Shown: in pieces, positions 6,907-8,276 of the stretch
Position numbering within the stretch: position 1 is the first letter of the stretch
Layout of the letters: each line of letters begins with the position of its first letter
Source: a virus
IMG/VR virus record: IMGVR_UViG_3300043436_005807
Span: 1-38,567 of that record
Length of the DNA: 38,567 bases
Strand: one strand, 5' to 3'
Program-made: the position numbers and the translations under genes
The notes under the pieces: model-generated
What the model was told of the DNA's origin: nothing
Databases searched by the model: none
The model's input: the letters and a program-made list of their open reading frames with translations, nothing else

Positions 6907-6950
6907 ACACCGCCCGCGCCGCGATGCGGTGCGGGCGGTGTCTTTGCCTT
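6907..6950 (+). terminator. Intrinsic terminator-like hairpin after the ssDNA-binding gene
   Basis: ACACCGCCCGC (6907-6917) pairs perfectly with GCGGGCGGTGT (6931-6941) across a 13-nt loop, followed by a moderately T-rich stretch (TCTTTGCCTTT). It begins five bases after the stop codon. The weak T-tract suggests partial termination, allowing some read-through into the methyltransferase gene. Confidence 0.65.
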
Positions 6951-6983: not shown

Positions 6984-8276
6984 ATGCCTCTGCGCGCCTA
7001 CTACAACGAGATCGATCCGTTCGCCGCCGGCGTTCTGAAGCGCCGGATCGCCGACGGATCGTTGCCGCCAGGGGACGTCGACGACCGTGACATCCGATCA
7101 ATTCAAGCTTCCGATCTTCGGGGATATGCCCAGGTCCACCTCTTCGCGGGGATCGGCGGATTTGGGCTTGCCGCTCGCCTTGCCGGATGGCCCGACGACC
7201 GCCCACTGTGGACCGGTGGCTATCCGTGCCAGCCGTTCTCGGTCGCAGGAGTCCGGCGTGGAATGTCGGATGATCGCTACCTCTGGCCGGAATGCGCTCG
7301 CCTTCTCGGGGCTCTCGAAGAAAGACCCGCTTGGTGCGTGTTCGAAAACGTTGATGGTCATCGCGATCTGGGGCTCGATCGAACGCTCCTTGATCTGGAA
7401 GCCCTGGGCTACGCCGGGCGGCCGTTTTGGATTCCGGCTTGCGCCGTCGGCGCGCCCCACGACCGCATGCGGGTCTGGATCGTTGCCAAAAGGCTGGACG
7501 ACGCCGCAGGCGCACGATGCGCAGGGCCGGGGCGATCCGAAGCGGTGGCGGAGGTTTGGCGGGAAACATGGCGGGGCGAACCTGCCGGACGAGGTGGCGA
7601 TGGCCGTATCGCCGTGGCCGACGCCGAGGGCGAACGAAAGCACCGGAGCGCAACCGCCGCCCGGACGCCAGGGAGGTCCGGCGCTGAAAACGCTCGCGCT
7701 GTCGACGCTTTGGCCGACGCCCCGGGTCTGCTCAGGCGCACGGTCGTCGGGGATGAACCGGACGGAGATGTATCGGGCAGGGCCGACGAACTGGCCGACG
7801 CCGGGGACGGACAGCTTTCGCAGCCGCAGCGGCAAGCGCAAAGACGAGATGGGGCTCGATCAACTGGCCCGGCGCTCGGCGGTGGCTCCGTGGTCAACGC
7901 CGACACAGAACGATTCCGCGAATCTGGGAGCGCCCAGCCAGTTCTGCCGGAACAGCCAGGCACTGAACGTGCAGGCCAAAGCCAACTGGTCAACGCCCCG
8001 TGCGTCGGATGGGGCAAAGGGTGGGCCGAACCAGGCGTTCGGGGCGGGCGGTCAACCGCTGCCGGCGCAAGCGGCGCAGACCGCGATCCGTGGGGAAATG
8101 CCATCTGGGTCGAATGCGCCGACGGAAAACTCCGGCGCATTGAACCCGGCTTGGGTCTGCTGGCTCATGGGATACCCGAACGGGTGGCTCGACTAAGGGC
8201 GCTCGGCAACGCGATCGTTCCGCAAGTCGCCGCGCAAATTCTCAGCGCCATCATCGCCTCCGAGGCCCGTCCATGA
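6984..8276 (+). CDS. Phage DNA (cytosine-5-)-methyltransferase
   Basis: A 430-residue C5-cytosine methyltransferase; it would methylate phage DNA from S-adenosylmethionine, probably for protection from restriction. The motifs are in order: I (HLFAGIGG from residue 52), IV (GGYPCQPFSVAG with catalytic C82), VI (CVFENVDG, E121), VIII-like (DRMRVWIVA from residue 160) and X (RALGNAIVPQVAA from residue 405). The target-recognition region (about 170-380) is low-complexity with repeated LDDA, VADA, LADA, LADA, VNAD and VNAP blocks. ATG 6984 is chosen because MPLRAYYNEIDPFAAGVLKRR is the usual family start; upstream codons lie in the terminator hairpin. The gene overlaps the primase gene by ATGA. 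A second open frame crosses it. Confidence 0.92.
   Translation: MPLRAYYNEIDPFAAGVLKRRIADGSLPPGDVDDRDIRSIQASDLRGYAQVHLFAGIGGFGLAARLAGWPDDRPLWTGGYPCQPFSVAGVRRGMSDDRYLWPECARLLGALEERPAWCVFENVDGHRDLGLDRTLLDLEALGYAGRPFWIPACAVGAPHDRMRVWIVAKRLDDAAGARCAGPGRSEAVAEVWRETWRGEPAGRGGDGRIAVADAEGERKHRSATAARTPGRSGAENARAVDALADAPGLLRRTVVGDEPDGDVSGRADELADAGDGQLSQPQRQAQRRDGARSTGPALGGGSVVNADTERFRESGSAQPVLPEQPGTERAGQSQLVNAPCVGWGKGWAEPGVRGGRSTAAGASGADRDPWGNAIWVECADGKLRRIEPGLGLLAHGIPERVARLRALGNAIVPQVAAQILSAIIASEARP
7087..8196 (+). CDS. Overlapping +1-frame ORF with six W-[PST]-T-P units inside the methyltransferase gene
   Basis: This frame is open from 7039 to 8196, entirely inside the methyltransferase gene. Its first half is out of register with the methyltransferase motifs and reads like a shadow. 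From 7495 it contains WTTP (7495), WPTP (7615, 7711, 7792) and WSTP (7891, 7987), often followed by x-A/D-x-D/E-type blocks (WSTPRASDGAKGGPN), and it ends LNPAWVCWLMGYPNGWLD. That ending and the W-P-T-P repeats resemble target-recognition regions of other phage cytosine methyltransferases. A GTG at 7087 or an ATG at 7600 (after GAGGTGG) could start it; a +1 shift near 7485-7495 could fuse it to the methyltransferase core. It could equally be an untranslated relic. Confidence 0.4.
   Translation: MTSDQFKLPIFGDMPRSTSSRGSADLGLPLALPDGPTTAHCGPVAIRASRSRSQESGVECRMIATSGRNALAFSGLSKKDPLGACSKTLMVIAIWGSIERSLIWKPWATPGGRFGFRLAPSARPTTACGSGSLPKGWTTPQAHDAQGRGDPKRWRRFGGKHGGANLPDEVAMAVSPWPTPRANESTGAQPPPGRQGGPALKTLALSTLWPTPRVCSGARSSGMNRTEMYRAGPTNWPTPGTDSFRSRSGKRKDEMGLDQLARRSAVAPWSTPTQNDSANLGAPSQFCRNSQALNVQAKANWSTPRASDGAKGGPNQAFGAGGQPLPAQAAQTAIRGEMPSGSNAPTENSGALNPAWVCWLMGYPNGWLD

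Follow-up and report, generated by a model that had tools for sequence, protein, structure and literature searches.

Background

Two described methyltransferases divide their conserved motifs between subunits: in M.EcoHK31I motifs I–VIII and X lie in the large subunit and motif IX in the small one, and in M.AquI motifs IX–X lie in the small subunit (PMC3404938). Multispecific methyltransferases with tandem recognition domains have been described from the Bacillus phages SPR and H2 (PMC8936443), and the ShiLan domain is an out-of-frame HNH endonuclease within an actinophage methylase (PMC11855218). The gene analysed here lies on a phage contig, in a stretch of 38,567 nucleotides (the window), and is open in two frames, termed frame 0 and +1. 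The multispecific SPR and H2 enzymes are single-chain. For M.EcoHK31I, the small gene is said to lie inside the large gene, in a different reading frame (reportedly the work of Lee, Kam and Shaw in 1995).

Loci and null models

The loci set consisted of 315 loci and the window, and about half of it was fetched with frame-0 queries that were blind to the +1 frame. As null model, synonymous codons were shuffled with the frame-0 protein and its codon use held fixed. Stops in +1 were counted from codon -96 (before motif VIII) to ten codons before motif X in loci with recognisable motifs, and codon positions were compared in pairs of loci, each locus being reused up to twice. The alignment behind the +1 structure model took in two wrong-frame rows (L317 and L325), which were both left out of later profiles. 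Since the wobble-by-region analysis, the 227-locus stop analysis and the Shine-Dalgarno (SD) analysis drew on loci with a +1 match, the set fetched with frame-0 queries only was taken as the main evidence.

Two families in one gene

The two frames were searched separately. Frame 0 matched phrog_363 (E 4e-64) and Pfam DNA_methylase (3e-21), and +1 matched a different family, phrog_1008 (E 3.9e-25); judged by these matches, two methyltransferase families can be recognised in a single piece of DNA, one per frame, as an earlier note on this DNA had suggested. Both families are labelled DNA methyltransferase and are listed separately, and no source was found which states that they are two readings of one gene. 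The +1 chain gave no domain in Pfam or NCBIfam, and its profile gave no match in a sequence search against solved structures; used alone as protein query, the chain matched in 58 phage records. Frame 0 probably starts at ATG 6984 (an earlier ATG at 6924 lies within the same open frame), and +1 starts at GTG 7087 to give 369 aa, with ATG 7126 as alternative. The open +1 stretch reported by the earlier note is real and is longer than the 7495–8196 given there, running from the GTG at 7087 to 8196. The six TGG codons it had placed at what are now the module starts (Table 1) were all found, with +1 reading WTTP, WPTP, WPTP, WPTP, WSTP and WSTP, and both frame endings were as it had quoted them; of its frame-0 units, LDDA, VADA, LADA and LADA stand, and VNAD and VNAP had been read one codon late (actually VVNA and LVNA). 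A scan of a few neighbouring genes revealed no recognisable restriction partner. A HipA-like kinase gene is located on the same phage contig at 1507–2835 of the window (HipA_C 2.5e-53).

Table 1. Features of the gene open in two frames (positions in the window)
Feature	Position	Strand	Basis or remark
Frame-0 C5-cytosine methyltransferase, proposed catalytic (alpha) subunit	6984..8276	+	Pfam, phrog_363, M.HhaI-like model
AGGGG, possible weak ribosome-binding site for GTG 7087	7070..7074	+	Sequence; family-wide enrichment of SD plus start nearby
+1 ORF, proposed beta subunit (target recognition and motif IX)	7087..8196	+	phrog_1008, same ORF in homologs, stop depletion, wobble constraint
Motif IV (Pro-Cys-Gln), frame 0	7224..7232	+	Sequence; invariant or nearly so in family
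Conserved +1 segment LIWKPWATPGGRFGFRL (family LTWKxxxTPxGR), predicted beta hairpin	7390..7440	+	W104 nearly invariant; pLDDT 82-84
Motif VIII (GAPHDRMR), frame 0	7449..7472	+	Family alignment
W-x-T-P module 1 (WTTPQAHDAQGR...), +1	7495..7614	+	Modules at most 71% identical in other loci
Frame-0 residues 198-365 (VADA/LADA repeats), predicted disordered linker	7575..8078	+	AF2 pLDDT ~32-38
W-x-T-P module 2, +1	7615..7710	+	+1 module scan
W-x-T-P module 3, +1	7711..7791	+	+1 module scan
W-x-T-P module 4 (WPTPGTDSFRSRSGKRKDEMGLDQ...), +1	7792..7890	+	81-85% identical in L258, L265, L268, L293, L294, L296
W-x-T-P module 5 (WSTPTQNDSANLGAPSQFCRNS...), +1	7891..7986	+	At most 76% identical elsewhere; related in-frame module in mycobacteriophage IrishSherpFalk
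W-x-T-P module 6 (WSTPRASDGAKGGPNQ...) and linker, +1	7987..8139	+	Related in-frame modules in Actinoplanes and Arthrobacter phage Scavito
Motif-IX-like segment LNPAWVCWLMGYPNGW, +1	8140..8187	+	p3/p1 0.27-0.49; pLDDT 91; precedes motif X in single-frame enzymes
Motif X (RLRALGNAIVPQ), frame 0	8190..8225	+	GNAIVPQ; G408 and N409 invariant in family alignment

The frame-0 chain

Frame 0 has the Pro-Cys motif, the AdoMet-binding fold and the motif X of a C5 methyltransferase. Its structure model comprised a confident catalytic core and a C-terminal motif X region with a disordered middle (residues 198–365), and its best match was M.HhaI (Z 17.2, rmsd 3.3 over 196 aligned residues); the disordered linker is predicted to sit where a folded target-recognition domain would be expected. 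Motif IX was not recognisable within frame 0 of the window. Across 338 loci, the PCQ pattern was found in frame 0 of 335 and in +1 of none, and the motif X pattern in frame 0 of 321 and in +1 of 6; the motif IX pattern, which was written from forms found in this dataset, occurred in +1 of 291 loci and in two frame-0 chains. Frame 0, lacking a recognisable motif IX, was classed with the large chains of split enzymes and not with complete one-chain enzymes.

The N-terminus of frame 0 (window 6984–7100, AYYNEIDPFAAGVL...) is like the M.HhaI segment that follows motif I, but is located before motif I here; residue 3 of the model aligns with HhaI residue 34, and from the model the arrangement looks like a local permutation. 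Two other dual loci (L005 and L325) have the usual motif order at this end.

Selection on both frames

Because the gene is GC-rich and 224 of 5000 shuffles left +1 open over as long a stretch, openness alone is weak evidence in the window. W-x-T-P occurs seven times in +1 of the window, a count reached by none of the 5000 shuffles, and with the +1 profile, built without the window and its 92%-identical twin, the real frame scored 276.5 bits, whereas no shuffle exceeded 106.8. In all 152 loci fetched with frame-0 queries (152/152), the real +1 frame scored above every one of its own shuffles (median 209 vs 39 bits). Over the counted interval, five +1 stops were observed in 100 distinct frame-0-query loci where 352 were expected from synonymous shuffles, and 96 of the 100 had none at all; in the same loci there was no stop depletion far upstream, downstream or in +2. 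A set of 227 loci was likewise depleted of +1 stops. The earlier note had named frequent +1 stops in homologs as an observation that would speak against it, and homologs proved to be nearly free of them.

Synonymous change was suppressed in the overlap. For related pairs, the ratio of position 3 to position 1 divergence (p3/p1) was 1.21 within the overlap; beyond the overlap it was 2.78, and neighbour genes gave 2.19; between the window and L011, changes at positions 1/2/3 numbered 28/9/22 in 367 overlap codons and 27/11/94 in 283 neighbour codons. By region, p3/p1 was about 2.5 upstream of codon -56, where the first half of +1 is open with its amino acids little constrained, 0.49–1.08 across the bins of the LTWK/TPSGR segment (0.49–0.63 in the two strongest) and 0.27–0.49 at the motif-IX-like segment, and it was back to normal at motif X. 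Next to motif IX, divergence was.217 at p1 and.060 at p3, i.e. the +1 wobble position changed faster than the +1 second position. A protein-coding +1 frame should leave just this pattern, as the first codon position of frame 0 is the third of +1. Constraint on the frame-0 wobble positions coincides exactly with the conserved parts of the +1 protein; the other objections anticipated in the earlier note, a dS as high as elsewhere and a lack of independent W-P-T-P proteins, were likewise not borne out.

Start of the +1 chain

Stops in +1 were in excess upstream of codon -118 and nearly gone from -96 on. Within this start zone, +1 start codons with an SD-like tetramer before them were found in 147 loci (54.6 expected), and at column -116 there were 70 of them (9.4 expected). 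The start signal of the window itself is weak and not decisive, with a suboptimal gap of 12 bases between AGGGG and GTG 7087. Taken together, the enrichment of SD-preceded starts and the stop pattern suggest that +1 is initiated separately rather than reached by frameshift, and a start region of its own with separate initiation is the reading favoured from these sequences.

Modules and the motif-IX-like end

The +1 chain has the signature LNPxxxxWLMGYP, which resembles motif IX, and ends, just before its stop, in LNPAWVCWLMGYPNGW; M.HhaI has KLHPRECARVMGYPDSY in its motif IX. Modelled alone, the +1 chain gave a poor structure (pTM 0.26), too poor for a structure search; given this poor fold and the lack of a matching solved structure, the motif IX assignment is based on the sequence pattern and on single-frame relatives.

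There are usually two to five modules per +1 chain, with a median length of 36 residues. Similar modules in different loci stood at a different ordinal position in 1250 of 1647 pairs, and the same module type was never found twice within one locus (7.7 expected in shuffles). Shuffling between phages together with absence of repeats in a locus suggests that the modules are tandem target-recognition units; removal of duplicates by recombination could also account for the missing repeats. Most of the tested modules of single-frame enzymes have relatives among the +1 modules.

Single-frame and tandem relatives

In mycobacteriophages IrishSherpFalk and Shauna1, Gordonia phage Phinally and Actinoplanes, W-P-T-P modules, a motif-IX-like segment and motif X follow each other in one chain. 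The +1 profile found all these single-frame enzymes and also the second ORF of the tandem pair 81/82 of Arthrobacter phage Scavito. As the single-frame enzymes hold modules, segment and motif X in this order, the +1 chain corresponds, by sequence comparison, to the recognition part and motif IX of related enzymes. In Scavito 81/82 (L400, 460–2557), the catalytic part and the W-P-T-P/IX/X part are two tandem overlapping ORFs. In five loci (L302, L308, L257, L299 and L312) a W-P-T-P ORF is located downstream of a truncated C5 methyltransferase and is not nested; some of these have in-frame W-P-T-P in the first ORF too. In two further loci (L313 and L341) the methyltransferase frame changes partway through the gene: the VADA reading gives way to the W-P-T-P/LNP one. 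As this second reading stops with no motif X, the two loci look like damaged or wrongly assembled copies, and the switch itself looks like a natural frameshift or an assembly error.

Distribution

In 308 of the 316 sequences, 153 loci from the frame-0 set among them, the best +1 profile match lay over the methyltransferase gene, in its +1 frame; the median overlap was 996 nt. Among loci from bacterial genomes of many phyla the overlap was present in 76 of 80, figures that indicate spread and not frequency as these loci were fetched with the +1 query. Double coding is thus conserved in hundreds of phages and prophages and is not a one-off coincidence; the hosts include Proteobacteria, Firmicutes and Cyanobacteria, among others. 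Mostly just one of the two proteins is annotated: in Klebsiella phage VLCpiM12a (L001, 1111–1986) only the +1 ORF is annotated, as DNA methyltransferase, and the catalytic frame was missed. Both frames are annotated as overlapping genes in Escherichia phage K1ind2, and both are named DNA cytosine methyltransferase in Paenibacillus phage Bloom. A literature search, with most subscription papers outside its reach, found no report of a family-wide overlap of this kind; a paper that connects overlap and methyltransferase in Salmonella phages was not relevant.

Discussion

The analysis documented selection on both frames, a split of the motifs between them, a start region that +1 has to itself and, in other methyltransferases, these modules and the motif-IX-like segment within a single frame. 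It is considered highly probable that the locus encodes a nested two-subunit methyltransferase of the M.EcoHK31I kind, in which +1 would provide target recognition and motif IX in trans. Frame 0, which holds motifs I–VIII and X but no recognisable motif IX, would give the catalytic chain, with a disordered linker where target recognition would be expected; the +1 ORF, started at its own codon inside the gene, would be translated into a second chain that carries an N-terminal helix-hairpin segment, motif IX and several W-P-T-P modules. Both would then assemble into one enzyme, with target recognition supplied in trans by the second, and phage DNA methylated by it may escape host restriction. 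We infer the translation, the assembly, the role of the modules and the protection.

If +1 encoded an independent protein, e.g. an anti-restriction or regulatory one, that is no part of the enzyme, its own start region and its lack of a Pfam or NCBIfam domain would be accounted for. This is unlikely, as its modules and IX-like segment occur between motifs VIII and X in single-frame methyltransferases, frame 0 lacks both, and +1 was accompanied by a C5 methyltransferase in every locus examined. Still less probable is a programmed ribosomal frameshift that joins the catalytic part read in frame 0 to the recognition part read in +1 and so yields a second form of the enzyme: strong amino-acid constraint on +1 does begin only about 50 codons before motif VIII, but the frame is stop-free from about codon -96 with a stop excess upstream of -118, SD-preceded starts are enriched in its start zone, and the shifted product would end without motif X. 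In the window, a frame-0 chain shifted into +1 would end at the 8196 stop and lack the motif X at 8190–8225, so that an indel or frameshift switch is not a workable swap. The purpose proposed in the earlier note, a change of specificity by indel or ribosomal frameshift, is therefore not upheld; both frames are kept intact together, and +1 has its own start region.

Frame swapping by indels could also act over evolutionary time, with the family alternating between readings and one frame always a relic; the two loci that change frame in mid-gene and the existence of single-frame W-P-T-P enzymes would fit. Nearly all loci keep both frames intact and constrained at once, and swapped readings lose motif X, which makes this very improbable. 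Hardly credible is the view that conservation of +1 is a by-product of frame-0 conservation, codon usage, high GC or a DNA-level repeat. The openness of the window is by itself not significant, and null sequences do score some bits against the +1 profile, but the shuffles that keep amino acids and codon use were exceeded in every frame-0-query locus, and the faster change of the +1 wobble than of the +1 second position is a coding signature.

Within the nested two-subunit reading, a more specific one is put forward tentatively, at slightly less than even chances: +1 may be an exchangeable out-of-frame specificity subunit of shuffled W-P-T-P cassettes, each for a different DNA sequence, which serve one catalytic chain in trans, and over this region the catalytic chain may have become a disordered linker able to accommodate the cassettes in whatever order. 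Changes of specificity would then arise in evolution through cassette recombination that leaves both frames intact. It is rare for two proteins that share a long overlap both to be conserved across phyla, and this overlap spans about 1 kb. If the two-chain reading is right, many phage methyltransferases have been annotated as half an enzyme, and expression of frame 0 with changed codons would silently destroy the second chain, with possible false-negative activity tests; how overlapping genes and methylation specificity evolve would become directly testable.

Of the systems described, M.EcoHK31I is matched in the placing of motifs I–VIII and X in the large chain and of IX in the small one, and in having two ORFs on the same DNA, both frames being under selection here; in M.EcoHK31I, however, the predicted recognition domain is in the large chain, whereas here the middle of the large chain is predicted to be disordered and the W-P-T-P modules are in +1. 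With M.AquI the gene would share a division of activity between two chains within the recognition region, but here the large chain keeps motif X and the second gene lies inside the first; IX and X are not joined in the small chain, since +1 stops at 8196 before the GNAIVP codons, and Scavito 81/82 is nearer to M.AquI than the nested gene is. As in SPR and H2, several units, here only candidate recognition units, stand in a row, but in contrast to these enzymes they are read in a different frame from the catalytic chain. With the ShiLan HNH endonuclease the locus has in common a second protein from another frame inside a phage methylase gene; the HNH is a homing insertion, whereas the +1 chain is proposed to be a subunit of the enzyme itself.
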